DNA of 32,017 nt, taken from an uncultured bacterium (lineage in GTDB: Bacteria; Patescibacteriota; Minisyncoccia; Phycocordibacterales; PALSA-1337). Below are positions 1,082 through 29,481 of the stretch, piece by piece; position 1 is the stretch's first letter, and each line of letters begins with the position of its first letter. The DNA is taken from NCBI GenBank assembly GCA_903837075.1, contig CAILTI010000019.1:1-32017 (forward strand). The letters run 5' to 3'. Below the pieces are notes generated by a model. The model saw only the letters and a program-made list of their open reading frames with translations, made no database searches and was not told the DNA's origin. The translations under genes were made by a program, and so were the position numbers.

Positions 1082-1861
1082 ATGTATGAACAAACACTTA
1101 CAAATGCGGGGCTTTCAAAAGAGCAGGCATCCGTTTATCAGCTCCTCATGCAGGGAGGATTGACTCCTGCAGGCGTTATTAGCAAAAGGGCGGCCCTAAA
1201 GCGTGGTTTGACGTATAAAGTCCTAGAACAGCTCATAAATATGGGTTTAGTTCAGAAAAGGGACGATCTAGGCAAAATAACGCTATTTCAAGCATCTCAT
1301 CCTGGCGTATTGAGGAAACTTACTGAAACCAAGGCCGAGGAGGTAAAGAACGCCCAAGTATCATTGGAATCAGTGATGGGTAAGATGGTATCAGACTATA
1401 ATTTGGTGACGGGGAAGCCAAATGTGCAGTTTTTCGAAGGTTTGGAGGGGGTAAGGAGGGTATTGGATGATTCTCTGAGTGCTACTGGTGTGATCTATTC
1501 ATATGCAGATATTGAATCAATCGAGAAATATATACATGGGGTTAACGAAAAATACGTTGAAAAGCGTGATAAGTTCAATATCAAAAAGAAAGCAATAATA
1601 CTAGATACGCCATTTGCACGTGATTTTTTGAAAGATTACCATCGAGAAACTACTGATATCAAGCTTATCAAACATGATTCACCTCCATTTCATACAGTTA
1701 TGCAGGTTTACGACAACAAAGTTAGTTATATTACGCTGTCTGAAAAGGAAATGATCGGTGTTATCATAGAAGACCCGCACATCTTTGAAATGCATAAATA
1801 TCTGTTCGAATATTCTTGGGATAAGGCGGAATCATTGCCGAAACTAGATACTCCTAAATAA
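1082..1861 (+). CDS. TrmB-like helix-turn-helix transcriptional regulator
   Basis: 259 aa ORF; N-terminal winged HTH (LSKEQASVYQLLMQGGLTPAGVISKRAALKRGLTYKVLEQLINMGLVQKR) typical of TrmB-family regulators, with a C-terminal effector-like domain. Confidence 0.75.
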   Translation: MYEQTLTNAGLSKEQASVYQLLMQGGLTPAGVISKRAALKRGLTYKVLEQLINMGLVQKRDDLGKITLFQASHPGVLRKLTETKAEEVKNAQVSLESVMGKMVSDYNLVTGKPNVQFFEGLEGVRRVLDDSLSATGVIYSYADIESIEKYIHGVNEKYVEKRDKFNIKKKAIILDTPFARDFLKDYHRETTDIKLIKHDSPPFHTVMQVYDNKVSYITLSEKEMIGVIIEDPHIFEMHKYLFEYSWDKAESLPKLDTPK

Positions 1862-4706
1862 TGATAGCGTGTCGGGTCTCTATCATTTGAGGGAGTTGAA
1901 AATCATTCCTGTATCGTTCCAGTTTCTCGCCCAATTTCTCTACAACCAATATAACCAGCTCTTCACTACCTGTTGTTTTCTCTCTGAACATTCTGGTTAC
2001 CGCATAACCTTCTCCAAAGGAAGCGAGGTTTAATGTATAAGACTTGTAATCTGACGCCGTGGTTGCGTATACCATCGCATCTTCTGGGTTGTCAGAAAGG
2101 CCCAGTGTCTCCCAGGAATTCATCACCATATGATCTAGTATGTATGATTCGTCCAGAGATTTTGTTACTAACTCATTGTTTATGGAGTCATTCCTCACAA
2201 TATCCCAACATGCTATCTCATCTAGGGGGTATTCGTTGTATGCGATAAATCCCTTCTCAATGTATTTTGCAGCTATCTTGGTGTTTCTGTCACATTCAGC
2301 TTTGACGATATGCATGACAGCGTAATCATCTAGAGTTTCCTCTAGCATTTGTTCGCCAACTTTGCGACCATTAAAATCTGGATCGATATTAAATTTACCA
2401 AAATGAACACTTCCATCATCTTCGAATTCAAAGACACAATATCCTATCGGTTGCCCATCGAATTCGGCGACATGAAATATGGTCCTAGTATTCTTTCTCG
2501 AAACTTCTAGTCCGGCTAGCAACCTTTTCAGTAGCTTAGGTTTGTCTTGGTAGTTTTTCTTGTAAAGATTTCGGATTGCTTTCACAAATTCCGCGCTGTT
2601 GGTTTCGTTGTCTCCACCCTGGTATTGGATATTCTTGATAAACGGCATCTCGTTCATATTGGCGATATCGAATGAGCCGCGGCTAGCTTTAAGAATGGTT
2701 TGAACAACTATTGCCTCAGGTTTGATATTTTCGATATATTCACGGATTGCTTCTGGAGTAGATACATTTTCAGATGCTATTTTACTAATGATAGTGTCGA
2801 CTTGAGCTAGGATGAGTTTCTTTGCTTGAGGAATGACGGTTTTTTTGATAACAACATCATTTGGCTCCAAGATTTCTTCTTCCTCATATGTTTTAGATCT
2901 TTCATAGATATCATCAAACTCATCATCTAGGCGTGATATATATGATGATATACTGGCCAATAACTCCAATATCTGATGAGAATCAATACCGTCAGGCAAG
3001 TTAGATATTACATCGAGTGTCTTTGTGGCAACTACAGGATCAGTCTCATAGTAACGAAGAAATACTTTTAAGCCAGATTCACCATGAGTCTTTGCTAGAT
3101 TTAGGAGTTTATCTTCGGATACCTGCTCCAATTCATTGAGTATGATGAGTAGGGCACCTTGTTCCTTGAATGAGAAGTTGTTTAGTCGTATATCACCTGA
3201 GAATATATCGCTATCGGAAATATTGAAGTAGTGCTTTTTGAATTCTTCTAAATATCGTTCTCGTTGCCTCTTTTCATCTTCTGTCTCACCTGTATGTGGT
3301 CTGAAAAGAGTATTATATGTAAAATCGAGCACATCCGCCTTGATGTTTTTCTCTGTTTCAGAAAGATTTCCGACATCAAAATATTTCAATAATTCTAGAT
3401 CTTGATTGAACACACCGATCTCTCCACTGGTAGATAATCTTTGAACGAAGTAGTCTGGGTTATTGAGTGCTCCTAGGTCGTACATCTTGTTCAGATACTC
3501 GACACCTTCAGTCGAAACTCCTATTCTCTTGAATTCGACTCTATATAATATAGCTGCTATAGCTGTTTTATCATTGTTATCGTTCATGTGCTCCATCAAT
3601 TTCACTGAAGCATATTGTCCGTCAATAGCGCTTAGCGCATCAGCTACTGAGTTTGCAAAGATAGGATTTAGATTCTTTGACCAGAAGTCAACTACGAGGT
3701 CGACATCGTCGTGGTCACCGCTCGTGCCGAGGTATCTATATTGGTCCAATACCGCCAGCATTATTCTATGGAAAGGGTATTCTTCTATATACTCGAAACT
3801 GATATAATCCTGCGTATCATTCATTTCATATTCAAAGACTGATTGAGCTGAATTGTATGCAGCACTTGGTTGATATGTTTTAAAGAGCATCGAGTGTGCT
3901 GCATTGAAGTAATCTGACTTTGATAATCTCCTTTTAGAGTTATCTTCTGATACGCTTTCTCTGGTGAAGCTTGAATTATTGGCTTCGAGAAAGACCAGTG
4001 ACTCTTGCAAGTATGCGAGACATAGACTGAGTAACTTTTTCCGAGATTGAGTATCTAGTGTTCTGTATTCATCATTATCGAACAAGTCGCGTGTTTGCAG
4101 AATTTCGCTTAAGCCTACAGGATTCGAACTTGCCTTATCAATGGCATTCGATATATTATTTGACGCCATACCAAATGAAGCGATTTCATCAAGAAGGTTT
4201 GTGCCATTGGATAGTAAATGTTTTGGGGCTTCGATTCTTCTCTTGTTTATCTTTTGCCACGGATTGAGGGTAGTTTGATTTGATGAGTCTTTTGTGGATA
4301 AAAAAACTCTATGTGCGGCCATACTCCAAACTGAAAATTCCTCGGTAGTTTGCGGACCTATATTGCTGGAAATCAATACCCGAAAGGCTTCTAAGTCGTC
4401 AGGATATGTGTCAAAGTACAGATCCGCATCACTAGGACTTACAGAAATGTTGCGAGATGACAGACCAAAAAAAGCCATTCTTTTTCCCGGTGACATAGAG
4501 CCCAGGTTGTCGAGGTTATCGGGAGAGAAAAATGTCAGTGGATTGTTCCCATATTCTTTTTTCCATTCTGCATAAGTGGCAACGTTGTTATTCTCTCGTT
4601 CGAACTCATCTATAGGATCGCATAATGACTCTTGGGAAAACTGAGTGGCATTGTTATTTGTAGTATTCTGTTCTTCGGTCACTGGTATTGATTCAAATTT
4701 CATCAT
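1854..4706 (-). CDS. large protein with C-terminal GNAT N-acetyltransferase domain; N-terminal ~650 aa unrecognised
   Basis: 965 aa ORF; start more likely at ATG 4706 (MMKFESIPV) than 4751. C-terminal VAEFDGQPIGYCVFEFEDDGSVHFGKFNIDPDFNGRKVGEQMLEETL resembles the GNAT acetyl-CoA-binding core. TATTAT box 6 nt upstream of ATG 4706. Confidence 0.75.
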   Translation of the reverse strand: MMKFESIPVTEEQNTTNNNATQFSQESLCDPIDEFERENNNVATYAEWKKEYGNNPLTFFSPDNLDNLGSMSPGKRMAFFGLSSRNISVSPSDADLYFDTYPDDLEAFRVLISSNIGPQTTEEFSVWSMAAHRVFLSTKDSSNQTTLNPWQKINKRRIEAPKHLLSNGTNLLDEIASFGMASNNISNAIDKASSNPVGLSEILQTRDLFDNDEYRTLDTQSRKKLLSLCLAYLQESLVFLEANNSSFTRESVSEDNSKRRLSKSDYFNAAHSMLFKTYQPSAAYNSAQSVFEYEMNDTQDYISFEYIEEYPFHRIMLAVLDQYRYLGTSGDHDDVDLVVDFWSKNLNPIFANSVADALSAIDGQYASVKLMEHMNDNNDKTAIAAILYRVEFKRIGVSTEGVEYLNKMYDLGALNNPDYFVQRLSTSGEIGVFNQDLELLKYFDVGNLSETEKNIKADVLDFTYNTLFRPHTGETEDEKRQRERYLEEFKKHYFNISDSDIFSGDIRLNNFSFKEQGALLIILNELEQVSEDKLLNLAKTHGESGLKVFLRYYETDPVVATKTLDVISNLPDGIDSHQILELLASISSYISRLDDEFDDIYERSKTYEEEEILEPNDVVIKKTVIPQAKKLILAQVDTIISKIASENVSTPEAIREYIENIKPEAIVVQTILKASRGSFDIANMNEMPFIKNIQYQGGDNETNSAEFVKAIRNLYKKNYQDKPKLLKRLLAGLEVSRKNTRTIFHVAEFDGQPIGYCVFEFEDDGSVHFGKFNIDPDFNGRKVGEQMLEETLDDYAVMHIVKAECDRNTKIAAKYIEKGFIAYNEYPLDEIACWDIVRNDSINNELVTKSLDESYILDHMVMNSWETLGLSDNPEDAMVYATTASDYKSYTLNLASFGEGYAVTRMFREKTTGSEELVILVVEKLGEKLERYRNDFQLPQMIETRHAIII

Positions 4707-4729
4707 AGTTATATAATAGCTATAAATAT

Positions 4730-4756
4730 GAAAAATGACCACTAGGGTCATTTTTC
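4730..4756 (-). terminator. intrinsic terminator downstream of rny
   Basis: GAAAAATGACC-ACTAG-GGTCATTTTTC, 11-bp perfect stem followed by T-rich tract on the minus strand. Confidence 0.7.
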
Positions 4757-4789: not shown

Positions 4790-6319
4790 CTACCTCGCGA
4801 ACTCCATCGTCCTGGTCTCACGGATGACGATAACCTTGATCTCACCAGGATATTTCAGATCCTTCTCGATCTTTAGAGCGATGTTGCGAGCGAGCTCCTT
4901 GGCGGCCACGTCATTGATCTCCTCTGGCTTGACGAAGATGCGTATCTCACGGCCAGCTTGCAATGCATATGACTTCTCTATACCAGGGAAGCTGTTGGCG
5001 GTAGCTTCGAGGTCACCGAGACGCTTCAGGTAATTCTCGATATTATCGCGTCGTGCACCAGGACGAGCGCCAGAGATGGCGTCAGCTGTCTGCACGATGC
5101 GTGATTCGACGGTTTCGTAAGGATATTCCTCATGATGAGCTTGCATAGCCTTGACTATCTCTTCGGAGGCGCCGAACTTCTGCAGGATGCGGCGGCCGAT
5201 CTCGACGTGCGTGCCAGCAACCTCATGGTCTAGGGCTTTGCCTAGGTCATGGAGTAGGGCACCGGCTTTGGCGACCTGAACATTGGCACCGAGCTCTTCG
5301 GCGATCATACCAGCGATATGGGCCATCTCTACTGAGTGCTGCAAGACGTTTTGGCCATAGCTAGTTCGGAAATGTAGACGACCGAGGATGAGCATGATGC
5401 GAGGATCTAGACCTATCACACCACACTCGTATGCAGCGGCCTCGCCCTTTTCCTTGATGGTCTTGTTGATGTCTTGCTTGGCCTTTTCAACCACTTGCTC
5501 GATCTTGGCGGGCTGGATACGGCCGTCCTTGATGAGTTCGAGGAGTGCTAGACGTGCTACATGGCGACGTACTGGATCGAATGATGAGATAGTGATGGCG
5601 CCAGGGGTGTCATCAACCATGACTTCGACTCCGGTGATACGTTCGAAAGCCTTGATATTGCGGCCTTCCTTGCCAATGATCTTGCCTTTGACATCGTCAC
5701 TAGGTATTTCGACGATCGTGGACATGACGTCTTGGGCGACGGAAGATGCTAGGCGCTGTATGGATATGGCCAGAATATCGCGAGCTTTCTGCTCGAACAT
5801 CTCTTCACCTCTGGTGTCCAGCTTGTTCATGCGTATGAGTATATCTTCCTCACTCTGCTTCTCGACTAGCTTGATGAGTTGATCCTTGGCTTCGCTGGAT
5901 GAGAGTTTGGCGATCTTTTCTAGTTCATGCTTGCGATCTTCCTCTAGTTTGTCGGCTTTCTCGCGGATAGCTTTGATCTCGGCTACACGAGTTTTGATCA
6001 TCTCGACCTCTTTGTCGATGTCTGATTGGCGTTTGTCGAGGAGATCCTCGCGTTTGGCGAGTCGGTCCTCAGTCTGACCTATCTTGTCTTCTTTCTCTTT
6101 TATCTCTTTCCTGGCTTCTTCGGCGACTTGGGCAGCTTTGGTTTCGGCACCTGCGGTGATCTTCTTGGCTTCTTCCTTGGCGGATAGGAGCATCTCTTTG
6201 ATTTCGAGCTCCATCGAGCCTTTCTTGCCTAGAGATATGATCAACCTCAGGTAATAACCTACAGCAACGCCAAGCACTCCGGCGAGAGCGAGGAATATTG
6301 CGGCTAATTTGAGTGACAT
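4790..6319 (-). CDS. rny: ribonuclease Y (N-terminal TM/coiled coil, KH and HD domains)
   Basis: 509 aa; GKIIGKEGRNIKAFERITGVEVMVDDTPGAITISSFDPVRRHVARLALLELIKDGRIQPAKIE and HDLGKALDHEVAGTH are RNase Y signatures. Confidence 0.95.
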   Translation of the reverse strand: MSLKLAAIFLALAGVLGVAVGYYLRLIISLGKKGSMELEIKEMLLSAKEEAKKITAGAETKAAQVAEEARKEIKEKEDKIGQTEDRLAKREDLLDKRQSDIDKEVEMIKTRVAEIKAIREKADKLEEDRKHELEKIAKLSSSEAKDQLIKLVEKQSEEDILIRMNKLDTRGEEMFEQKARDILAISIQRLASSVAQDVMSTIVEIPSDDVKGKIIGKEGRNIKAFERITGVEVMVDDTPGAITISSFDPVRRHVARLALLELIKDGRIQPAKIEQVVEKAKQDINKTIKEKGEAAAYECGVIGLDPRIMLILGRLHFRTSYGQNVLQHSVEMAHIAGMIAEELGANVQVAKAGALLHDLGKALDHEVAGTHVEIGRRILQKFGASEEIVKAMQAHHEEYPYETVESRIVQTADAISGARPGARRDNIENYLKRLGDLEATANSFPGIEKSYALQAGREIRIFVKPEEINDVAAKELARNIALKIEKDLKYPGEIKVIVIRETRTMEFAR

Positions 6320-6700
6320 ATGCGGTGTTGGTCCGCCCTCTCCAAACTATGGTGAAATGATCTGGTTATGAGTCTTATGTATTGTGTGTAACTGGCTCTG
6401 AATCATAATTTTTAGTTCACGAAAGCGTCAGATCGGGAGAATCAAAATTTAAAATTGGTAACATAGGTAGCATACAACGAATATGGTGGTTTATGCAAGT
6501 ATTGATCATATTACCTAACACATATATGCCGTGGAAGAAATCAAGCTCACCGCTTCCGAATGGGTTATATACTGCGAAGTGCCGCTTGCAATAGAGCGCC
6601 ATCTAATGTATATTGTGTCAACAAGCAATAAATAGCGATAAACCAGTAGGGCATATGATATAGTAGAAATGTGATAATTATTTAATTTAAATATAAAAAT

Positions 6701-7282
6701 ATGTTAATACCAACAGTTATAGAAAAGTCATCATTCGGAGAGAGAGCTTATGATATATATTCACGTCTACTCCGAGATAACATCATCTTCCTCGGTGGTC
6801 CTATAGATGATCACATGGCAAATCTCATCATCGCCCAATTGCTATTCTTGCAATCCGAAGATCCCAAGAAAGAGATCCAGTTGTATGTAAATTCTCCTGG
6901 CGGTTCAGTCACTGCGACTCTGGCCATCATCGATACTATGCAACATATCAAGAATGATATTTCCACAGTCTGTGTCGGTATCGCTGCTTCTGGTGCAGCG
7001 TTGGTATTGTCAGCAGGAACGAAAGGCAAGAGGTTGGCATTACCGAATTCTGAAGTGATGATCCATCAACCTATAGGTGGAGCAGAAGGGCAGGCGTCAG
7101 ACATAGAGATCAGTGCCAAACATATATTGAAGACTCGTATGTCATTGAATAAATTGCTAGCAAAGAATACTGGTCAGTCACTCGCACGTATCGAGAAGGA
7201 CGTTGATCGTGATTTCTTCATGGATGCGGACGAGGCCAAGAAGTATGGAGTGATCGATCAGGTTGTTGTAGGGAAGAAGTAA
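6701..7282 (+). CDS. clpP: ATP-dependent Clp protease proteolytic subunit
   Basis: 193 aa; [34 protein letters not shown] (Ser), MIHQPIGG (His), [20 protein letters not shown]. Confidence 0.95.
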
Positions 7283-8215: not shown

Positions 8216-8244
8216 TTGACACATAGTGATAGGAGGTGTATAAA
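8216..8244 (+). promoter_or_regulatory. sigma70-type promoter of the DGR target gene
   Basis: TTGACA (8216-8221) - N17 - TATAAA (8239-8244); predicted start about 8251. Confidence 0.7.
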
Positions 8245-8276
8245 ATATACAGTATTCAGGTCATTGAAATCTAGTA

Positions 8277-8376
8277 AATCAGATGCGAAATTGAGGCCGC
8301 AGCAAGTCGCGGAGTTGCTTCAGTTTCGCGTCTGATTACACACTGATAAGCACTCTGGTTCTCCGCGTGGCGGAGA
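8277..8376 (+). promoter_or_regulatory. structured 5' leader of the DGR target gene (two hairpins)
   Basis: Stem 8277-8295/8319-8337 (AATCAGATGCGAAATTGAG / TTCAGTTTCGCGTCTGATT; 19 pairs with 3 G-U wobbles that pair only in + strand RNA) and TCTCCGC-GTG-GCGGAGA 8360-8376. Confidence 0.6.
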
Positions 8377-8417
8377 CGATGAGATGACACAGTCACTATG
8401 ACGATGCGATCTATGAT

Positions 8418-9173
8418 ATGAAAAATAACATTGCAACTCCAGGGATGTGTTTGTCGGCCGGTGCGCGGTTCGCGACGAAGCTCGGTTCGATCAGTGCTTC
8501 ACATGATCTTGTGGACGCATTTCTGAAAGAGGGTGACAGTCACCCCTTTTACCAGGTTATCCTCGAACACTTCACTCTCAAGGCATCGAAGACCCAGTCA
8601 CTCACACCGTGGGTTGCTGCGGCACTCGCGAATTGGGGAGACTTCTACCAGAAGTTCTTTGGTATCGACCTCGATTTGACGGATCTCCGTATTCCGGAGA
8701 AGGTCGAGGGTTTCGACCGCCTGATCGTGATAGGGAAGGGTATCCGTCTCAATCAGGTTTGGAATGCTTACAAGGATCAAAAGATCCCGACTTGGCAATG
8801 GTGGGGTGGGTCGCTCGAAAATGCCATGCAGGAATCTGAACGCGGCATCGTAAACGAGAGCTATGCGATCTGGGTTCGTGACGGTCAGGAAGCAGACGAG
8901 GAGATGAAGGATCTCTCCGCTGATATGATCGCCGCTAGTAGCCCACAGAAGGTCGACACCGAGAGTTTACTCGAGAGGCTCGTCCACGGACTTCAGGTCT
9001 GGGATGCGACAAAGAAGCATCTCGATGTTGATAACATTACACTGTGTGCGTCGTCGCGCTCTGCCGATGGCGTTGTGCCGTGGGTCTCCTTCTATGACGC
9101 CTGCGTGTGCGTCTCCGGGTACTCTCCTTCGCATCGTGATCCGGACTTGCGTGCCCGTCAGGCAGTTCGGTAA
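8418..9173 (+). CDS. DGR variable (target) protein; C-terminal variable region
   Basis: 251 aa; C-terminus RSADGVVPWVSFYDACVCVSGYSPSHRDPDLRARQ is encoded by a near-copy of the template repeat 354 bp downstream with adenine-specific differences. Confidence 0.9.
   Translation: MKNNIATPGMCLSAGARFATKLGSISASHDLVDAFLKEGDSHPFYQVILEHFTLKASKTQSLTPWVAAALANWGDFYQKFFGIDLDLTDLRIPEKVEGFDRLIVIGKGIRLNQVWNAYKDQKIPTWQWWGGSLENAMQESERGIVNESYAIWVRDGQEADEEMKDLSADMIAASSPQKVDTESLLERLVHGLQVWDATKKHLDVDNITLCASSRSADGVVPWVSFYDACVCVSGYSPSHRDPDLRARQAVR
9053..9161 (+). repeat. DGR variable repeat (VR)
   Basis: Hand alignment to TR 9407-9515 (109 nt): 21 mismatches, all at TR adenines; 80 non-A positions all identical. Confidence 0.95.
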
Positions 9174-9198
9174 ACTTGTACCTTGTTCCTTTTTCACT

Positions 9199-9223
9199 CG
9201 GCCCCGATGCTATATCGGGGCCG
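9199..9223 (+). terminator. GC-rich hairpin downstream of VR (terminator and/or DGR target-recognition hairpin)
   Basis: CGGCCCCGAT-GCTAT-ATCGGGGCCG, 10-bp perfect stem, 38 nt after the VR end, followed by ACTTTTC. Confidence 0.6.
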
Positions 9224-9406
9224 ACTTTTCGTATACAATGTGTATGGTTATAAAATTGGTTGATATCAATATATCGATAACAATTTACCAAAGATAGAAA
9301 CTGCCTGTTTTCCTTTATACAATGATCAGAGTACCCCGAGTTGGACACAGAGAATCTCGAAGGAGGAGGGAGGTTCTCGGAGATATGGACAAAGGAAGAT
9401 AGAATG

Positions 9407-9515
9407 GTCGCGCTATGCCGATGGCAATGTGCCGAAGGTCAACTTCAATGACGACAACGTGAACGTCAACAGGTACAATCCTTCGAATCGTAATCCGAAC
9501 TTGCGTGCCCGTCAG
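9407..9515 (+). repeat. DGR template repeat (TR)
   Basis: Non-coding copy of the VR rich in AAC/AAT codons (SRYADGNVPKVNFNDDNVNVNRYNPSNRNPNLRARQ in the VR frame), upstream of the RT. Confidence 0.95.
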
Positions 9516-9579
9516 AAGTTTCTCGCAATTTTTGGGAGTTCATATTTGAAGGACTCCTTTTGCGTAGGAGGTTATGTCA

Positions 9580-9897
9580 TCAGTTTGTCCTTAAGGAAGC
9601 TATGTATGAAATCCACTTGCTTAACATTCTCGATATTTCAACCATGTCGCTTGATAGTTGTATGTATTTGTTTTCACCGATAATCTTTAGCTCGTGTTCA
9701 GTGCGAATGAGGTTCTTCAATACCTGAATTTGAACTCTTGCTAGCTCCAACGTCTTCAGTTTTTGATCTCTCCGTGTAAATGCCGCTTCTATTAGCAGGG
9801 CTAGTAACTTGACCGTGAGATCTTCATTGAGCTTGTGAAGTCCCAATTTGTCTCGTTTGGGAAGTTCGTGTCCTGTGGTATAAATATCTCTATGCAA
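9580..9897 (-). CDS. avd: Avd-like DGR accessory variability determinant (four-helix bundle protein); true start probably upstream
   Basis: HELPKRDKLGLHKLNEDLTVKLLALLIEAAFTRRDQKLKTLELARVQIQVLKNLIRTEHELKIIGENKYIQLSSDMVEISRMLSKWI resembles Avd/bAvd proteins; next to TR and RT. The ORF-track start is TTG; the frame stays open and Avd-like (TPTIINKVRILHRDIY) upstream to the C10 tract. Confidence 0.8.
   Translation of the reverse strand: MHRDIYTTGHELPKRDKLGLHKLNEDLTVKLLALLIEAAFTRRDQKLKTLELARVQIQVLKNLIRTEHELKIIGENKYIQLSSDMVEISRMLSKWISYIASLRTN
9876..9884 (+). promoter_or_regulatory. extended -10 element for the DGR reverse transcriptase
   Basis: TGG-TATAAA with 7 nt to ATG 9892; lies within avd on the opposite strand. 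Confidence 0.4.
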
Positions 9898-9910
9898 GAT
9901 CCTAACTTTA

Positions 9911-11011
9911 TTGATGATCGTCGGCGTACTGCTGATGTCGGAGGAGATTTTTCGGGGGGGGGGCGCTCATAGTTGTGATTATTGTGATGTAATTTCTATC
10001 AAGAATTTGTTGGGTGCTTGGAGGGAATTTAGGATGGGAAAGAGATCAAATACTGATGTAGCGTCATTTGAGCTACATTTGGAGGAATATATATTCCAGA
10101 TGCACGAGGTTTTCATTGGAGGGACCTGGAAACCAGACCCATATAGAGTGTCGATAATTGAAGATCCGAAACGTCGAACTATCCATGCTGCAAGTATACG
10201 TGATAGAGTTCTCTACCAAGCATTATACAGGAAATTGTATCCAATATTCGATCGGCAGTTCATATATGATGTGTACTCGTCACGCAACTACAAAGGAACA
10301 CATGCTGGTGTAAAGAGATTTGCAATGTTTGCTAGAAAAGTCTCACAAAATTACACAAGGACAGGATATGTCCTAAAATGTGACGTTCGGAAATTCTTTG
10401 ATTCTGTGGATCATGGAATTTTGTTCCAACTCATTTCAAAGCGTATTTCAGATGAGCGCGTACTAATGTTGATTTATAAAATTATCGATTCATTTCATCA
10501 TACTCACGGTAAGGGGTTGCCACTAGGTAATGTAACTAGTCAGCTATTTGCGAATATTTACATGGATGAATTTGATCAGTTTGTAAAGCATAAAATCAAG
10601 GCGAAATATTATATTCGCTACTGTGATGATTTTGTTATTGTAGACGAGTCACGTGAGACATTATTGAATCATTTAGATAAAATAGGGCCATTCTTATACG
10701 AAAATCTCTCGTTAGATTTACATCCTAGAAAAGTTGAAGTACGAGAGTTACATAGGGGAGTGGATTTTCTCGGCTATGTTTCTCTGCCACATTATGCAGT
10801 GCTTCGTACCAAGACAAAGAAAAGAATGTTTCGAAAACTTTGTAATGCGAAAAAACAGCTTGACCTTGACTCGGAAATCATTTCAAAAGCAAAGTTTGAT
10901 AACATCGTTGCCTCATATTCTGGTATGCTGAAACATTGTAAAGGTAGAAAGATCTTAGATGCTATTTTGAGAATAGTTGAATCTGGTATCTCTATTCAAC
11001 AGGCTATTTAG
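9911..11011 (+). CDS. DGR reverse transcriptase (natural start probably ATG 9892, frameshifted at the G10 tract)
   Basis: 366 aa; ISIKNLLGAWREFRMGKRSNTDVASFELHLEEYI, KCDVRKFFDSVDH, GLPLGNVTSQLFANIYMDEFD (DGR-type LPLGNxTSQ), YIRYCDDF catalytic motif, DLHPRKVEVRELHRGVDFLGY. Confidence 0.93.
   Translation: MMIVGVLLMSEEIFRGGGAHSCDYCDVISIKNLLGAWREFRMGKRSNTDVASFELHLEEYIFQMHEVFIGGTWKPDPYRVSIIEDPKRRTIHAASIRDRVLYQALYRKLYPIFDRQFIYDVYSSRNYKGTHAGVKRFAMFARKVSQNYTRTGYVLKCDVRKFFDSVDHGILFQLISKRISDERVLMLIYKIIDSFHHTHGKGLPLGNVTSQLFANIYMDEFDQFVKHKIKAKYYIRYCDDFVIVDESRETLLNHLDKIGPFLYENLSLDLHPRKVEVRELHRGVDFLGYVSLPHYAVLRTKTKKRMFRKLCNAKKQLDLDSEIISKAKFDNIVASYSGMLKHCKGRKILDAILRIVESGISIQQAI
9954..9963. repeat. G10 homopolymer in the RT/avd 5' overlap
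   Basis: Ten consecutive G's read directly from the sequence. Confidence 0.95.
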
Positions 11012-12187: not shown

Positions 12188-12227
12188 TATCCCTTGCGAA
12201 GGGATAAGTGTGAAGTTATCCACTTCA
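12188..12227. repeat. two consecutive inverted repeats in the tig/csoR divergent intergenic region
   Basis: TATCCCTT-GCG-AAGGGATA (12188-12206) and TGAAGT-TATCC-ACTTCA (12211-12227). Confidence 0.6.
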
Positions 12228-12236
12228 TTACCCAGA

Positions 12237-12265
12237 TTGACAGATACCCTAGGGGGGTATACACT
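12237..12265 (+). promoter_or_regulatory. csoR promoter with embedded CsoR-type operator
   Basis: TTGACA 12237-12242, N17, TACACT 12260-12265; operator ATACCCTAGGGGGGTAT (12244-12260) resembles copper-sensor CsoR boxes. Confidence 0.75.
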
Positions 12266-12271
12266 CAGATT

Positions 12272-12535
12272 ATGAATAAAAACAAACAAAAACTCGTTAG
12301 GAGGCTCAAGTTGATAGAGGGTCAGGTTCGAGGTTTACAGAAAATGATAGAAGAAGAGAAGTATTGTATAGATGTGATCACCCAAACTTCTGCGGTAAAG
12401 AGCGCCTTGTCGAGGGTAGAGGATGAGCTCATGGGTGCACATCTCAGTACTTGTGTGATCGAGCAGATGAGGGACGGTGAAGAGCGCAAATCTATCAGTG
12501 AGATATTGAAGGTTTACAGTTTAAAAAGAAAATAG
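12272..12535 (+). CDS. csoR: CsoR/DUF156 family copper-sensing repressor
   Basis: KLVRRLKLIEGQVRGLQKMIEEEKYCIDVITQTSAVKSALSRVEDELMGAHLSTCV with C-H-C ligand pattern; start reassigned to ATG 12272. Confidence 0.92.
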   Translation: MNKNKQKLVRRLKLIEGQVRGLQKMIEEEKYCIDVITQTSAVKSALSRVEDELMGAHLSTCVIEQMRDGEERKSISEILKVYSLKRK

Positions 12536-12540
12536 ATCAT

Positions 12541-14868
12541 ATGTCAGATACACAATCATTCAAAATAAAGGGTATGCACTGTGCTTCATGTGCCAGTATC
12601 ATCGAAAAAACACTGAAAAAGGTGGACGGAGTAAGTTCTGTGGCTGTGAATTTTGGTACTGAGACTGCAAAGATAGTTTTTGACGAGAGCAAAGTTAGTG
12701 CAGAGCACCTCGCCAGGAAGGTCGAGCCATTGGGTTATACATTGGATATCCTATCTGAATCGCGAGATTTCTCGCGGGGTGCCAGTGAAATGGGGATGAG
12801 TGATAGTGAGCATGCTGAGCATCTAGGTCTCAGTCAGTCCAAGAAGGAGAAACTCGCCGAACTTCATGATATGAAGAACAAAGTACTGTCTGTCATACCT
12901 CTCGCGATCATCAGTATAGTTGTTATGGCATGGGAAGGGCTGGCGAACGTTGGCCTGATACCTGAGATGCCTCAGGTGTTGAGAAATCTACTCATGACTT
13001 TGTTGCCGCTCATGGCGACTTATGCATTATTCGTCGTAGGTAAGCCATATCTACTAGGTGTTTACAGATTCCTCCGATACGGCAAGGCCAATATGGATAC
13101 TCTCATAGGGATCGGTACATCTGCGGCATTTCTATACAGTTTGGCTATAACAGCATTCGCAGATCAACTTCGTCCATTCATGAATGTGGAAAATACTTAT
13201 TATGATGTCACTATCGTCGTTATCACTTTTATCGCGCTTGGTAAATATCTGGAGACCAGGTCAAAGGTCAAAACTGGCGATGCTATAGAGAAACTACTGA
13301 ATTTGCAGGCAAAAACGGCTATCGTTGTTAGGGATGGTCGAGAATATGAGACGGCGGTAAGTGATGTGAGGCACGATGATGTTATAAGGGTAAAACCTGG
13401 AGCGAAAGTGCCTGTAGATGGCGTGATAACGACAGGTGAGTCGTTCATAGACGAGTCGATGATCACAGGTGAACCGATGCCGGTGCAAAAGAAAACAGGT
13501 GATAGTGTTGTGGCGGGAACTATGAACACTAACAGCTCATTTACTTTCAGAGCTGTGAAAGTCGGGAGAGAGACACTGCTCGCACAGATCATCCAGATGG
13601 TTGAAAACGCCCAAGGTAGTAAGGCACCTATCCAAGCTCTCGCCGACAAGATTTCTAGTATATTCGTTCCGGTTGTCCTAGTCATATCTTTTATAACTCT
13701 CGGACTATGGCTGCTAGTTGGTACCAGTGCGCTCGGGTTTTCCCAAGCACTGTCCTCGGGACTGGTATCTTTCGTCGGCATCCTCGTCATCGCCTGTCCT
13801 TGTGCACTCGGTCTGGCGACACCGACGGCGATCATTGTCGGGGTCGGGAAGGGTGCCAAAGAGGGAATATTGATAAAGGATGCCGCGACTCTGGAAAAAT
13901 TGCATAAGGTTGATGTCGTTATAGTAGATAAAACCGGGACAATCACGATCGGTAAGCCGACTTTGGTGGATATTTCGAATCATTCCGATAGAACCGATAG
14001 TGAACTCATCGCGATACTGTCTGCACTAGAGACACATTCTGAACATCCTATAGCTCATGCGGTGATCAATTATGCGGATTCGATGACCACTTCGTCGGTT
14101 CACCGACTGGAGGTTTCAAACTTCGAGGCGATCAAGGGAAAGGGTATAAAGGGTTCCATAGATGGAGTTGAATATTATGCGGGAAATGCAAAACTGATCA
14201 GTGAAATAGATCGTGATTTTGATGTCGTGGAACTCGAGAAATATACAGTGCAGGGAAAAACTCCCGTTATTCTGGCTACAAAAGGTAAAGTTCTCGGCTT
14301 CGTCATGGTAGCAGATGAGATCAAAAAGGCTTCGAAAAAGGCCGTTTCAGACCTTCATGCACTGGGTATCGAGGTGATGATGTTGACCGGAGATGATGAG
14401 AGGGCTGCAAAGTATGTAGCCTCTGAAGTTGGTATCGATACGGTTATCGCACACGTATTACCGAAAGACAAGCTAGAAAAGATCAAGGAATTGCAGGCTG
14501 ATGGCAAGATCGTTGCTATGGCAGGCGATGGTGTAAATGATGCGCCAGCCTTGGCACAGGCTGACGTTGGGATCGCCATGGGGACAGGGACAGATGTGGC
14601 CATCGAGTCTGCGGGCATAACGTTGCTCGGAGGTGATATTGCAAAATTGGTCAAAGCGATCAAACTATCAAAGATAACTATGAGAGGTATCAAACAAAAC
14701 CTTTTTTGGGCATTTATTTACAATGTGATAGGTATACCTCTCGCGGCTGGTGCTTTCTATCCGATATTCGGTTGGCTATTGAACCCTGCATTTGCTGGAT
14801 TGGCTATGGCCTTTTCGAGTGTGTCGGTCGTATCAAATTCGTTACGTATCAAAACCATCGGATTATAA
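12541..14868 (+). CDS. copA: Cu+-translocating P-type ATPase
   Basis: 775 aa; HMA GMHCASCAS, CPCALGLATPTA, DKTGTIT, HP motif (SEHPIAHA), GDGVNDAPALAQADVGIAMGTGTDVAIESA. Confidence 0.96.
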   Translation: MSDTQSFKIKGMHCASCASIIEKTLKKVDGVSSVAVNFGTETAKIVFDESKVSAEHLARKVEPLGYTLDILSESRDFSRGASEMGMSDSEHAEHLGLSQSKKEKLAELHDMKNKVLSVIPLAIISIVVMAWEGLANVGLIPEMPQVLRNLLMTLLPLMATYALFVVGKPYLLGVYRFLRYGKANMDTLIGIGTSAAFLYSLAITAFADQLRPFMNVENTYYDVTIVVITFIALGKYLETRSKVKTGDAIEKLLNLQAKTAIVVRDGREYETAVSDVRHDDVIRVKPGAKVPVDGVITTGESFIDESMITGEPMPVQKKTGDSVVAGTMNTNSSFTFRAVKVGRETLLAQIIQMVENAQGSKAPIQALADKISSIFVPVVLVISFITLGLWLLVGTSALGFSQALSSGLVSFVGILVIACPCALGLATPTAIIVGVGKGAKEGILIKDAATLEKLHKVDVVIVDKTGTITIGKPTLVDISNHSDRTDSELIAILSALETHSEHPIAHAVINYADSMTTSSVHRLEVSNFEAIKGKGIKGSIDGVEYYAGNAKLISEIDRDFDVVELEKYTVQGKTPVILATKGKVLGFVMVADEIKKASKKAVSDLHALGIEVMMLTGDDERAAKYVASEVGIDTVIAHVLPKDKLEKIKELQADGKIVAMAGDGVNDAPALAQADVGIAMGTGTDVAIESAGITLLGGDIAKLVKAIKLSKITMRGIKQNLFWAFIYNVIGIPLAAGAFYPIFGWLLNPAFAGLAMAFSSVSVVSNSLRIKTIGL

Positions 14869-14893
14869 TATATCATTCATCAATATCACATCT

Positions 14894-15961
14894 ATGACAA
14901 CAGAAACAAACAAATCCGATAATTCACAAGAAAGAACGATGACATTCTATGTGAGTGGCATGCACTGTAGTGCGTGCGTGTTGCTGACTGAGAGTGAGCT
15001 CGGGGAGATGTCACACATCTCTAGGGTAAGATCCAGTTTGCATAGCCAGACGATCGAGGTGACGGGAATGTTCGGAGACAAGACCCTGGAAATGATCGCA
15101 GTAGAATTAACTGCACCTCTCAAGACGCATGGATACATCGTTTCGGCTGAAAAACCAGGGACAACGAAGAGTGGTATAGGAAAATGGTCGGACTTCCGTA
15201 TCGCTATACCGGTCGCCATCGGCTTTGCTATAGTCTTCGTACTTCTCCAGAAACTCGGAATAGTGAATATGGTGAACGCCAGCAATGTCACCTATGGTAC
15301 CGCGTTCGCGATCGGTATCGTCGCGTCACTTTCCACATGCATGGCTGTCGTTGGTGGATTGGTCCTATCTATGTCTGCAACATTCGCCAAAGATGGTGAC
15401 AGAGTAAGGCCGCAGATCATGTTCCATGTTGGTCGTATCGTAGCATTCTTCATTCTAGGGGGAGTGATCGGCGCGATAGGGTCGGCATTTACTCTGAATG
15501 TGTCTGCGACGTTCATCCTGAATCTCATCATAGGTATGATCATGCTCATTCTAGGGCTAAATCTACTGGAGATATTCCCATGGGCAAAGAAACTGCAGCC
15601 ATCGATGCCGAAGTTCATAGGGAAGTATGCTCATGGTGTTGCTAAACTCAACCATACGCTCACGCCATTGTTGGTGGGGGCGGCGACTTTCTTTCTGCCG
15701 TGCGGATTTACTCAGTCGATGCAGATATACGCGTTGACGACAGGGAGTTTTTTCCATGGTGGATCGATGATGTTGGCATTTGCGCTGGGAACATTGCCAG
15801 TACTGGCTCTAGTTAGCTTTAGTTCATTCAGTATGAATGGTAGTACCAGGTCAGGAGTATTTTTCAAGTCGGCCGGTCTGGTAGTCATACTCTTTGCGAT
15901 ATTCAATATTATAAATAGTCTCGTGGTTATCGGATTCTTACCACCGATATTCGATTTCTAG
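14894..15961 (+). CDS. HMA-domain plus sulfite exporter TauE/SafE-like (DsbD-like) membrane protein
   Basis: Internal start MTTETNKSDN; GMHCSACV heavy-metal-binding motif then a multi-TM domain (STCMAVVGGLVLSMSATFAKD..PQIMFHVGRI..LPCGFTQSMQIYALTTGSFFHGG). Confidence 0.85.
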   Translation: MTTETNKSDNSQERTMTFYVSGMHCSACVLLTESELGEMSHISRVRSSLHSQTIEVTGMFGDKTLEMIAVELTAPLKTHGYIVSAEKPGTTKSGIGKWSDFRIAIPVAIGFAIVFVLLQKLGIVNMVNASNVTYGTAFAIGIVASLSTCMAVVGGLVLSMSATFAKDGDRVRPQIMFHVGRIVAFFILGGVIGAIGSAFTLNVSATFILNLIIGMIMLILGLNLLEIFPWAKKLQPSMPKFIGKYAHGVAKLNHTLTPLLVGAATFFLPCGFTQSMQIYALTTGSFFHGGSMMLAFALGTLPVLALVSFSSFSMNGSTRSGVFFKSAGLVVILFAIFNIINSLVVIGFLPPIFDF

Positions 15962-15967
15962 TATAAT
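15962..15967 (+). promoter_or_regulatory. -10 box TATAAT placed for leaderless transcription of the cupredoxin gene
   Basis: TATAAT 15962-15967 followed by 6 nt (CAACAT) and ATG 15974. Confidence 0.5.
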
Positions 15968-15973
15968 CAACAT

Positions 15974-16372
15974 ATGAAAACTCCCGTCATTATATCGATC
16001 ATCATCGCTGGTGCTATCATCGGAGGATCCATGCTACTAGTAAATAGTGGCTCAGGATCGGCCTTTTCTGCGGATACTGTTGCGAATAATGTCAGTATCG
16101 TGGATGGGAATCAGATGATAGTAATACATGCAAAAGGCGGTTACCAACCAAGGAGAAGCATTGCAAAGGCGGGATTACCCAGTATTCTCAGGTTTGATAC
16201 GAGCGGCACGTTCGACTGTTCAGCATCCGTCCGTCTCCCTAGTCTCGGTATCAGTAGATCGCTGCCGCTAACTGGTCAGACAGACATTGACATAGGTATT
16301 GCGAAAGCAGGTACCTTTCGAGGTACCTGCGGCATGGGTATGTATCCCTTTGAAGTGGAATTTACTAATTAG
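15974..16372 (+). CDS. cupredoxin-like copper-binding protein with N-terminal membrane anchor
   Basis: 132 aa; N-terminal TM; IVIHAKGGYQPRRSIAKAGLPSILRFDTSGTFDCSASV..KAGTFRGTCGMGMYPFEVEF (Cys/Met ligand loop of cupredoxin fold). Confidence 0.75.
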   Translation: MKTPVIISIIIAGAIIGGSMLLVNSGSGSAFSADTVANNVSIVDGNQMIVIHAKGGYQPRRSIAKAGLPSILRFDTSGTFDCSASVRLPSLGISRSLPLTGQTDIDIGIAKAGTFRGTCGMGMYPFEVEFTN

Positions 16373-23912: not shown

Positions 23913-25661
23913 ATGCTGATCGAAAATACCCAGCTCTACAAATTCATCCTCGATTCTGGATTGGTAACCAGAGAAGACCTGGATGCGGCGGTGAAACAGA
24001 CCACTGAAGAAAACAGGGGCTTGGGAGATGTTCTCGTTACGAACGGCAAAATCACCGGCAACAATCTGAGACGTATGCAAGCATACGTTCTCGGGATCCC
24101 GTTCGTCGATCTACATGACAAGAGGATACCTTTCGAGACATTGTCACTCATACCAGAGCCGATCGCGCGTGCACATAACATCGTTGCGTTCAAGAAAGGG
24201 GATACAACTCTCGAAGTGGCCATGCTGGATGTAAATGACCTGTCTGCTATCGATTTCATAAAAAAGAAGGTAAATCTCAAGATATTGCCGAGACTGACAG
24301 ATGCAGACTCGCTGAAAGAAACCCTGGTTCAATATCAGAAGAGTCTCAAGGCCGAGTTTGGCGATATTATCCAGAAGGAAGTGGCGGCGCTCAATCTGGT
24401 TTCAGATGAAAAGGGGGGTGAGGCGTCTGCGGACGATCTGAAAAAGATCGCTGAGGACCTACCTGTTATACGTATCGTAGATACGCTGATAAAGCATGCC
24501 ATCATCCAGAACGCATCAGACGTACACATAGAACCGATGGATGATCAGGTGTTAGTCAGATACAGGATAGATGGCAGGTTACACGATGCTATGGTCCTAC
24601 CTAGACAGGCCGGCCCTTCTGTGACTGCCAGGATCAAAGTATTGTCAAATCTGAAATTGGACGAGAAACGTCTACCTCAGGATGGTAGATTCCGAGTTGA
24701 TGTGAACGGCGAGAGGGTTTCTTTCCGCGTATCGATCCTGCCGACTTACTATGGTGAAAAGACCGTGATGAGGTTGTTGCGCGAGAATGTTATCGGTTTT
24801 ACTCTGGAAAGTATCAACTTTCATGGAGAAAGTTTGGAGCGTATACATGCAGCATTGAAGAAAACGACAGGAATGATATTGACTACTGGCCCAACTGGTT
24901 CGGGGAAGACCACGACTCTGTATACGATGCTCGACATGCTGAATGCTCCCGACGTCAATATTTCCACTATCGAGGATCCTATCGAGTATCAGATGGCTCG
25001 TATCAATCAAACACAAGTCAAACCAGAAATAGGTTTCTCTTTTGCCCAAGGAATACGAACTCTAGTTAGACAAGATCCAGATATCATCATGGTTGGAGAG
25101 GTCCGCGATGATGAGACTGCTTCGCTCGCCATCAACGCCGCTCTAACTGGCCACCTGGTGTTCTCTACTTTGCACACGAACAGTGCTGCAGGCGCTATAC
25201 CTAGACTTTTGGATATGAAAGCCGAGTCCTTTCTCCTCGTATCAACTATCGACGTTATCATCGGACAGAGATTGGTGAGACATCTGACTGAGTCGAAGGA
25301 AGCATACAAATTATCCAGGGATGAGTTTGCTGAACTTTCGAAACTCGTCTCGTTGGATCGAGTATTGAAAGTACTGAAAGATGAGAAAATAGTGAAGGAA
25401 ACTGATACCTGGGACGACATTTCATTTTATAGACCAGTCAAAGGTCCAGAAGATGACGGATTCAAGGGGCGAGTCGGTATTCAGGAAGTTATCAAGATGA
25501 CGCCGAGCATCAAGGATCTAGTGATGAAAAGATCAACCTCTATAGATATCGAAGCCCAGGCCAAGAAGGAAGGTATGAGTACGATGATAGAAGATGGGAT
25601 ATTCAAGTGCGTGCAGGGACTGACAACGATAGAGGAGGTGTTGCGTGTCGTTTCAGAGTGA
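23913..25661 (+). CDS. pilB: type IV pilus assembly ATPase PilB/GspE
   Basis: 582 aa; Walker A GPTGSGKTTTLYTML, DPDIIMVGEVRDDETASLAINAALTGHLVFSTLHTNSAAGAIPRL. Confidence 0.93.
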   Translation: MLIENTQLYKFILDSGLVTREDLDAAVKQTTEENRGLGDVLVTNGKITGNNLRRMQAYVLGIPFVDLHDKRIPFETLSLIPEPIARAHNIVAFKKGDTTLEVAMLDVNDLSAIDFIKKKVNLKILPRLTDADSLKETLVQYQKSLKAEFGDIIQKEVAALNLVSDEKGGEASADDLKKIAEDLPVIRIVDTLIKHAIIQNASDVHIEPMDDQVLVRYRIDGRLHDAMVLPRQAGPSVTARIKVLSNLKLDEKRLPQDGRFRVDVNGERVSFRVSILPTYYGEKTVMRLLRENVIGFTLESINFHGESLERIHAALKKTTGMILTTGPTGSGKTTTLYTMLDMLNAPDVNISTIEDPIEYQMARINQTQVKPEIGFSFAQGIRTLVRQDPDIIMVGEVRDDETASLAINAALTGHLVFSTLHTNSAAGAIPRLLDMKAESFLLVSTIDVIIGQRLVRHLTESKEAYKLSRDEFAELSKLVSLDRVLKVLKDEKIVKETDTWDDISFYRPVKGPEDDGFKGRVGIQEVIKMTPSIKDLVMKRSTSIDIEAQAKKEGMSTMIEDGIFKCVQGLTTIEEVLRVVSE

Positions 25662-25730
25662 TCCAAGATGAAACCGCCGAGCATTATGTATTGTAATTTT
25701 CCATTTTAATTTGTCAATTTTACATTTCCT

Positions 25731-26954
25731 ATGAGCCATTTCATTTACAAAGCTAAAAAAAAGACGGGTGAGATATATAAAGGTGAGCGTAACGCTGCAG
25801 ATCGTTATGAACTTTATAAAATTTTACGAGAAAATGGCGAGGAGATCATACAGTTCCGTGAGAAGGGGTCATCTAGGAGTGCCGGATTTGATATTTCATT
25901 TGGTTTGATCAGCGGCAAAGTAAAAACTATAGACAAGATCAATTTTGCCAGAAATCTAGGATCGATGCTCGAGGCAGGACTCGCGCTCTCGAGGGCACTA
26001 GCGGTCATAGAGAGACAGACGGGAAGTAGAGAGCTGAAGAAAGTTGTGACCAGTCTGATCGGTGAGGTGAATCGTGGAATAACGTTGTCCGAAGCCATGG
26101 CACAAAATGGGAAAGTGTTTTCATCCCTATTCATCTCGATGGTTCACGCCGGAGAGCAGAGTGGAACTCTGGCTGAGGCACTAAAGGTTGTTTCAACACA
26201 GATGGACAATAACTATATTCTGGAGAAACGTATCAGGGGCGCTCTCATGTACCCAGCTATCATATTTTTTGCGATGATCATCATCGCTATACTCATGTTC
26301 ATATTCGTCATACCGACTCTCCTCGAAACATTTACAGAACTAGGAGTCGCGTTGCCATTCAGTACACGTATGATACTGGTTCTCAGTAACCTCATCCAGC
26401 ATCAAGGTCTGTTACTTTTGGCCGCCATCGTTCTGGTGTCAGGTTTACTATATGCATGGGCGAAAAGACCGACAGGCAAGAGTATTATGCATAAACTAGT
26501 ATTGATGATACCGATCATCGGCCCACTGGTTCAGGAAGTTAACACTGCTAGAACGGCACGAACACTGTCTTCATTGCTAAGTTCTGGAGTTGAGGTTGTG
26601 GAATCGCTGGAGATCACCTCGAACGTTGTGCAAAATGTGCATTTTCGGGCGGTTTTGAAGAATGCTATTGAAGCGATCAAAAAAGGGGATGTCATGTCCA
26701 GTGTTTTTGAGGAAGAAACGAAACTTTACCCAGTATTTTTCGCAGAGATGATCGGTGTCGGTGAAGAAACTGGGAAAACAGGAGACATGCTCCTCGGTGT
26801 TGCTCACTATTATGAGGCGGAAGTGGAGCAAAAAACGAAAGATATGTCTACTATCGTCGAGCCATTCCTCATCCTGATCATCGGAGGCGCTGTCGGATTC
26901 TTTGCAGTATCGATGATCCAGCCGATATATTCTCTCGTTGGGGCGGTGAATTAG
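25731..26954 (+). CDS. pilC: type IV pilus inner-membrane platform protein PilC/GspF
   Basis: 407 aa; two repeated T2SSF domains (FARNLGSMLEAGLALSRALAVIERQ; TARTARTLSSLLSSGVEVVESLEITS). Confidence 0.92.
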   Translation: MSHFIYKAKKKTGEIYKGERNAADRYELYKILRENGEEIIQFREKGSSRSAGFDISFGLISGKVKTIDKINFARNLGSMLEAGLALSRALAVIERQTGSRELKKVVTSLIGEVNRGITLSEAMAQNGKVFSSLFISMVHAGEQSGTLAEALKVVSTQMDNNYILEKRIRGALMYPAIIFFAMIIIAILMFIFVIPTLLETFTELGVALPFSTRMILVLSNLIQHQGLLLLAAIVLVSGLLYAWAKRPTGKSIMHKLVLMIPIIGPLVQEVNTARTARTLSSLLSSGVEVVESLEITSNVVQNVHFRAVLKNAIEAIKKGDVMSSVFEEETKLYPVFFAEMIGVGEETGKTGDMLLGVAHYYEAEVEQKTKDMSTIVEPFLILIIGGAVGFFAVSMIQPIYSLVGAVN

Positions 26955-27010
26955 GCACGGTCGCCACCTGATCTCTCGTGTTGATAAAATGAATCAACGA
27001 TAATACATAC

Positions 27011-28786: not shown

Positions 28787-28800
28787 TTGTGAGAAATGAA

Positions 28801-29481
28801 ATGTCAAAAAATATGAAATACGAAATAGGAAATATGCTATACGATCAATCACGAAAGAGACGTGCTCTTCGCACCGCAGCTCGTCAACGGGGCATGACTC
28901 TCATAGAGGTTCTAGTTACTCTCAGCATATTCATGTCGATAATGTTGGCTGTTATGCTATTTGAATACAACATGATCATGTATCCCAGGAATATTTCCGC
29001 ATCTCTGACCACTGCCCAGGATACTCAGGTTCTCCTGAAAACGATGTTAAGGGAATTGCGAAGTATGCAACCGGGTGCCAATGGTGCCTTTTCGCTGATC
29101 GCGACTGGAACCAGCACGGTATCTTTTTTCAATGATTCAGATGGTGATGGTGTAACGGAGCAGATCAGTTATGCTATGAGCAGTTCGAGTATATATAGGA
29201 GTGTGGTAGAGCCCACTGGTATTCCTGTTGTCTACAATCAAGCCAGCGCGTTGAAGAGTATGATCGTAACAAATGTACGCAATGGATCTTCCACGCCGCT
29301 TTTCCAGTATTTCGATAGCAACTATACTGGGTCTAGTTCGCCGCTAACTCAACCAGTAACAACGACCAAGGTGAGTCTCATAAAGATCCAGCTAGTCCTC
29401 GACGTGGATGTCGACAAAATGCCTCCGCCAGTGACGTATACTGTACAGGTCAGTTTGCGTAATCTGAAAACAAATCTATGA
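28801..29481 (+). CDS. prepilin-type cleavage/methylation domain protein (minor pilin)
   Basis: RQRGMTLIEVLVTLSIFMSIMLAVMLFEYN; start reassigned to ATG 28801, after the upstream stop. Confidence 0.8.
   Translation: MSKNMKYEIGNMLYDQSRKRRALRTAARQRGMTLIEVLVTLSIFMSIMLAVMLFEYNMIMYPRNISASLTTAQDTQVLLKTMLRELRSMQPGANGAFSLIATGTSTVSFFNDSDGDGVTEQISYAMSSSSIYRSVVEPTGIPVVYNQASALKSMIVTNVRNGSSTPLFQYFDSNYTGSSSPLTQPVTTTKVSLIKIQLVLDVDVDKMPPPVTYTVQVSLRNLKTNL

Follow-up and report, generated by a model that had tools for sequence, protein, structure and literature searches.

The window analyzed here, 32,017 nt of contig CAILTI010000019.1 from an uncultured member of the Patescibacteriota, carries a complete diversity-generating retroelement (DGR) of the candidate phyla radiation (CPR) type, with a run of ten guanines at the point where the accessory gene avd and the reverse transcriptase (RT) gene rt meet head-to-head. 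The best explanation, which we regard as probable from the sequence, is that activity of this DGR is gated by slipped-strand phase variation at the avd/rt repeat. The original prediction was of a complete DGR with a template repeat (TR), a variable repeat (VR), an RT and an adjacent Avd-like gene; that reading holds, but it had overlooked both the antisense orientation of Avd and the repeat at the junction.

A Simple Sequence Repeat at the avd/rt Junction

The features that meet at the junction are as follows:

9580..9897, − strand: Avd core open reading frame (ORF), antisense to RT and lying between TR and RT
9911..11011, + strand: DGR reverse transcriptase, with the motifs LGNVTSQ and YCDD
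9954..9963, + strand: G10 homopolymer (C10 on the avd strand), the putative tract for phase variation, where the 5′ ends of avd and rt meet head-to-head
9970-9968, − strand: candidate avd start codon ATG, antisense to a His codon (CAT) in the RT frame

Since a second DGR in the source genome (L078) shows the same arrangement with a G9 tract, 200 RT loci were gathered from whole genomes (100+) of the same genus, order and phylum, with one genome per species. A simple sequence repeat is present at the avd/rt junction in 179 of the 200. The unit is G in 159 loci (6 to 15 copies), GA/AG in 12, CT in two and TG/GT in two, while CTGA, TTGG, ATTG and TGGCGGC were each seen once. Unit length is only ever 1, 2, 4 or 7 and never a multiple of three, units of 3 and 6 being found in no locus. 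The repeat is also specific to this position: of the 59 runs of at least eight G or C in 399 kb, 57 lie inside the 7 kb that the junctions make up, and one of the two exceptions belongs to a junction truncated where its contig starts. The 21 repeat-free loci include contig-edge cases, as well as an RT clade in which the start codons of avd and rt overlap head-to-head.

Tract length and repeat unit differ between close relatives. Over 1.4 kb L112 and L158 share 90% identity, yet they carry (TTGG)10 and (ATTG)7, respectively; L136 and L138 (96% identical) have G9 and G11, and L218 and L226 (90% identical) have G6 and G9. About 19 changes of repeat class are needed on the RT tree by parsimony. 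At five loci (L052, L137, L144, L146, and L222) contigs start at the tract or have scaffold or N-gaps within it, which fits a mixture of lengths, although low complexity alone could also cause such breaks. The repeat at 179 of the 200 junctions thus has the form that characterizes contingency loci, namely a repeat in a 5′ coding region or promoter whose unit is not a multiple of three. Another hallmark of such loci, a downstream frame that depends on repeat number, is found in the statistics of ATG codons on the Avd strand.

Reading Frames Across the Repeat

Avd is antisense to RT in 192 of 192 scorable loci among the 200. In phage DGR controls (BPP-1 and Vibrio, Bacillus, and Burkholderia phages), by contrast, Avd lies on the RT strand in the four with a scorable Avd, and the repeat is found in none of five. 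In the window, the frame of the Avd core stays open upstream toward the tract without an ATG, GTG or TTG start. The candidate ATG at 9970-9968 (− strand) lies on the far side of the tract and is in frame with avd solely when the number of guanines (n) is a multiple of three; at the assembled length of n = 10 it is out of frame. The TTG of a conserved LP motif was considered as an Avd start and rejected as a general one, because that Leu is encoded by TTA or CTA in relatives (L086, L107, and L112).

This arrangement recurs throughout the set. An open ATG lies on the Avd strand within 45 nt before the tract in 172 of 176 loci, compared with 49% at control positions antisense to RT (p = 1.5e-47), and in 150 loci it occurs in exactly one of the three frames. 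Given the tract length as assembled, only 47 of 176 loci have this ATG in the frame of the Avd core, the expectation for a tract whose length can vary freely. Among repeat-free loci, on the other hand, 13 of 16 have an in-frame ATG, mostly at a constant 39 nt from the Avd anchor (Fisher p = 2e-5).

The ATG on the Avd strand frequently lies across from a His codon that is conserved in the N-terminal part of RT. Of 151 His codons close to the tract, 144 read CAT, whereas CAT makes up 63% of those in the RT body (p = 3e-21); such a bias would be imposed by a start codon on the opposite strand. Codons for Tyr, Asn, Phe and Ile near the tract follow background usage, and the corresponding Asp codon is moderately elevated (88% vs. 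67%).

On the RT strand, upstream ATGs are not in excess at loci where an RT ATG follows the tract (17 of 60, compared with 45% at control positions), but they are in excess at loci with no such ATG, the kind to which the window belongs (23 of 32). Where the RT frame must cross the tract, the ON phase is common to RT and Avd in 20 of 26 loci, with 11 expected. The window has no start codon between the tract and the RT core, and its candidate RT starts (TTG 9911, ATG 9914, and ATG 9935) all lie 5′ of the tract and agree with the RT frame at n = 10. RT can be read in frame from ATG 9935 or ATG 9914, but Avd cannot from ATG 9970 (− strand), and the source genome as assembled, a single consensus, would thus be Avd-OFF.

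A Proposed Slippage Switch

As is known from DGR biology, RT together with Avd would make an adenine-mutagenized cDNA from the TR RNA, and this cDNA would take the place of VR at the end of the target gene. With the candidate avd start on the 5′ side of the repeat and the conserved core on its 3′ side, gain or loss of units would toggle the Avd frame. Replication slippage at the junction could in this way move avd in and out of frame and, in the sub-clade of the window, where the RT frame also crosses the tract, would shift rt as well. Cells whose tract length is in the right phase would hypermutate the target, while others would keep it fixed. We infer that tract length changes within populations, switches expression of Avd and RT, and gates retrohoming. 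A broader proposal, to which we would give even odds, is that throughout the Patescibacteria one bidirectional coding repeat at the starts of avd and rt acts as a stochastic master switch, with the hypermutator ON in a minority of cells. We put the same even odds on its corollaries, that targets would diversify in bursts and then be locked as heritable variants, and that Avd and RT would share one phase in the window's sub-clade.

Several observations weigh against phase variation of the reading frame. The tract differences were compared between different species, each represented by one genome. At some loci translation of Avd might begin 3′ of the tract, at TTG or another codon. Within the window the nearest ATGs are out of phase, RT being ON at n = 1 mod 3 and Avd at n = 0 mod 3; a farther RT ATG, 62 nt upstream of the tract, has the phase of Avd. 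Finally, a TANNNT box directly follows the G tract in 63 of 159 loci against a background of 1.7%, so transcription could account for some of the effect.

Alternative Explanations

The TANNNT box is also an argument for a transcription switch, in which the tract is a spacer of the RT promoter and its length alters the distance between the −35 and −10 elements, as in fimbrial and porin promoters of Haemophilus and Neisseria. In Haemophilus, a dinucleotide repeat lies between divergent fimbrial promoters. The ATG often found 13 nt after the tract would suit a leaderless mRNA. Tracts of 28–46 nt (built from TTGG, ATTG, CTGA, TGGCGGC or GA) are, however, longer than any promoter spacer, and both the avoidance of units that are multiples of three and the ATG/CAT signals on the Avd strand call for an explanation in terms of reading frame. 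As a partial account, a promoter effect competes seriously with frame switching, and the two mechanisms could coexist, but as the explanation of the repeat a transcription switch is unlikely.

Less plausible still is an ordinary, constitutively expressed CPR DGR whose tract has no regulatory role, being a neutral microsatellite or else a fixed polypurine leader to rt. The cassette is indeed complete and of a known kind, and the RT start codon is downstream of the tract in 128 of 176 loci, often as the ATG 13 nt after it, so that the expression of RT at these loci could be independent of the length of the tract. Neutrality is difficult to reconcile with a repeat that is limited to the junction and recurs there with at least seven different units, with a frame relation between tract and Avd-strand ATG that is far from random, and with the maintenance of the Avd frame in repeat-free relatives. 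A polypurine leader leaves the TTGG, ATTG, CT, GT and 7-mer repeats unexplained; a Shine-Dalgarno-like leader was rejected on the same grounds.

Programmed slippage by polymerase or ribosome would yield a fixed fraction of in-frame Avd and RT whatever the genomic tract length. RNA polymerase can slip on G/C runs of 9–11, and this would accommodate the finding that Avd is in frame in merely 27% of assembled loci. Repeats of di-, tetra- and heptanucleotides, which occur at this site too, do not lend themselves to slippage of this type, though, and with tract lengths ranging from 6 to 15 we consider it very improbable. An artifact of sequencing or assembly at poly-G, to which the contig breaks and N-gaps noted above might point, can practically be dismissed: the repeat occupies the identical place in scores of independent genomes, some of its units are not homopolymeric, and G-runs are nearly absent elsewhere on these contigs.

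The Retroelement Cassette

The remaining components of the cassette are as follows:

8418..9173, + strand: DGR target gene, 251 aa, its C-terminal region formed by VR
9053..9161, + strand: variable repeat (VR), defined by alignment with TR
9198..9224, no strand assigned: perfect inverted repeat with an 11-bp stem, TCGGCCCCGAT-GCTAT-ATCGGGGCCGA, 37 nt 3′ of VR
9407..9515, + strand: template repeat (TR), with 29 adenines, 21 of them altered in VR
9534..9561, + strand: terminator-like hairpin and T-run directly 3′ of TR

Realignment of VR (9053-9161) with TR (9407-9515) reproduced the gapless match over 109 nt claimed earlier. Each of the 21 mismatches falls on a TR adenine (21 of 29), for which random placement has a chance of 3e-16, and the signature of adenine mutagenesis is upheld, as are the 14 codon changes previously listed, in the frame of ORF 8418-9173. 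Identity stops abruptly on either side of the repeats. The 3′ edge of VR is 12 bases short of the end of the target ORF and the final 17 bases of VR and TR are the same, resembling an initiation of mutagenic homing (IMH) sequence; a DGR is expected to have its VR in this terminal position, with an invariant 3′ edge. No third copy of TR/VR was found in the source genome (730 kb in 60 contigs, 77% complete). Adenine-confined TR/VR pairs are also present in most of the relatives scanned.

The target protein has no family match in Pfam, NCBIfam or PHROG, and profile searches against the PDB and Pfam name no fold for it, C-type lectin or other. An AlphaFold model made from two sequences has a predicted local distance difference test (pLDDT) score of 30, too low to be informative. 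Alignment of 17 homologs reveals that relatives at the level of the order have in common a C-terminal module, TLCxxSRxxDGxVP...LRxR, and differ in their N-termini.

The class of the RT was assigned from match scores and motif. Its best solved relative is the BPP-1 enzyme bRT (8ub7; E = 2e-39, 139 bits), compared with 78 bits for a group II intron RT; it matches the RT profile phrog_1423 at 6e-106, and its LGNVTSQ agrees with the DGR-type motif. The profile search that had been suggested, together with one of structures, therefore returns a DGR-type enzyme. Placement in the group II intron clade, named in the original prediction as an outcome that would speak against it, is not what is observed, because the RT is nearer to BPP-1 than to group II introns. 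Assignment as a group II intron, retron or defense-associated (DRT) enzyme was likewise rejected, the matches being weaker. The Avd-like gene that had been placed next to the RT is also confirmed, by Pfam bAvd (E = 2.3e-10, 41.4 bits, above the cut-off of 40), although its location on the minus strand at 9580-9897 had gone unstated. It also matches phrog_3206 (“Avd protein of DGR”), and NF033474 at 1.8e-11, under the equivalog cut-off of that model.

The inverted repeat at 9198-9224 is a candidate terminator and/or an equivalent of the hairpin found downstream of VR in BPP-1. The hairpin that follows TR is more widely represented: a terminator-like hairpin lies 3′ of TR in 87 of 100 related cassettes, compared with 14 of 100 control stretches, and the TR RNA therefore probably ends at 9534-9561, apart from the RT message. 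The spacer after TR (9516-9561 in the window, and its counterparts in relatives) is short and terminated by the hairpin, whereas the Sp region of BPP-1 is ~140 nt long and binds bRT-Avd. The RNA contacts of the CPR RT-Avd may differ from those of BPP-1. A role for the junction repeat as a polypurine tract, priming plus-strand synthesis, was also considered and is unlikely: the repeat lies 440 nt beyond TR, behind the terminator-like hairpin, and so is unlikely to be part of the TR RNA.

Other Cassettes and Neighboring Genes

The second complete DGR of the source genome (L078, on G000:C29 at 365-2895) has an unrelated target of 210 aa. Its VR (867-992) and TR (1338-1463) differ at 21 positions, 18 of them at A; its Avd is antisense, its RT is 50% identical to that of the window, and its G9 tract is at the avd/rt junction. 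Locus L034 (G034:C15:8000-17353) has a single TR (6679-6804) serving two targets of the same family that flank the RT, with VRs at 6249-6374 and 8928-9052. In L064 the VR is on the strand opposite to TR and downstream of RT, with 27 of 28 mismatches at A; the target is inverted and the cassette is otherwise alike.

Genes of the target family also occur with no TR, Avd or RT nearby, in L029 and L031 (both of genome G041), L033 (G106) and L035 (G092). The differences between L029 and L031 are almost confined to VR-like positions, and the RT of G041 is split into two frames; no RT match was found in G106 or G092.

Elsewhere in the window, 12194-16372 contains a metal-handling operon encoding a member of the CsoR-like metal-sensitive repressor family, a P-type ATPase with an HMA domain, a DsbD-like transmembrane protein with an HMA domain, and a cupredoxin. 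An operon resembling those for type IV pili or type II secretion (23913-31037) encodes a PilB/GspE-like ATPase and a PilC/GspF-like protein, followed by large pseudopilin-like proteins of 591, 243, and 519 aa. On the minus strand, 1854-4751 encodes a protein of 965 aa with a GNAT acetyltransferase domain at approximately residues 726–838 and no recognized domain in its first 700 residues.

Relation to Known Systems and Significance

CPR DGRs are already known, and their main survey is reportedly that of Paul et al. in 2017; the part that seems to be new is the architecture with an antisense Avd and a putative repeat gate. DGR clade 2 of Roux et al. is restricted to Patescibacteria/CPR (Roux et al., 2021; PMC8144416). 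The cassette described here resembles these cellular CPR DGRs in RT and in VR/TR type, and in having a target without a recognizable transmembrane or conserved domain. The earlier description of the source as a CPR-like genome agrees with this clade and with the sizes of genomes in the phylum sample (0.4–1.5 Mb at >90% completeness). The main text of that study makes no mention of Avd, homopolymers, repeat tracts or an antisense arrangement, and it does not decide between stronger RT control and stronger selection as the reason why cellular targets turn over more slowly (PMC8144416).

With BPP-1 (mtd-avd-TR-brt; NC_005357) the window shares the four components, adenine-specific mutagenesis, the position of VR at the 3′ end of the target, and a hairpin 3′ of VR. 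In BPP-1, however, avd is co-directional and upstream of TR, and no repeat precedes brt, whereas the avd of the window sits between TR and RT in antisense orientation, and a terminator-like hairpin comes directly after TR.

The junction repeat resembles the poly-G/C contingency loci of Campylobacter and Neisseria, in which a homopolymer of 8–12 nt, or di-, tetra- or heptanucleotide units that are likewise not multiples of three, lies near start codons and many assembled alleles are OFF. Known contingency loci switch surface structures, restriction-modification systems or regulators, while here the repeat sits at a component of a targeted mutator and, in a further departure, a single tract is common to two head-to-head genes. 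No report that connects DGRs to phase variation, homopolymers or simple repeats was found in the literature searched; subscription papers were outside its scope, and priority is uncertain.

DGRs can generate up to astronomically many protein variants, and how cells spare a good variant is a standing question. A slippage switch acting on Avd and RT would be a concrete, heritable and cheap form of control, and one that is directly testable in existing metagenome reads. If confirmed, it would amount to two-layer bet-hedging, with a directed mutator under the control of a contingency locus, and would link phase variation and DGRs, two classic mechanisms of diversity, in CPR bacteria with reduced genomes.

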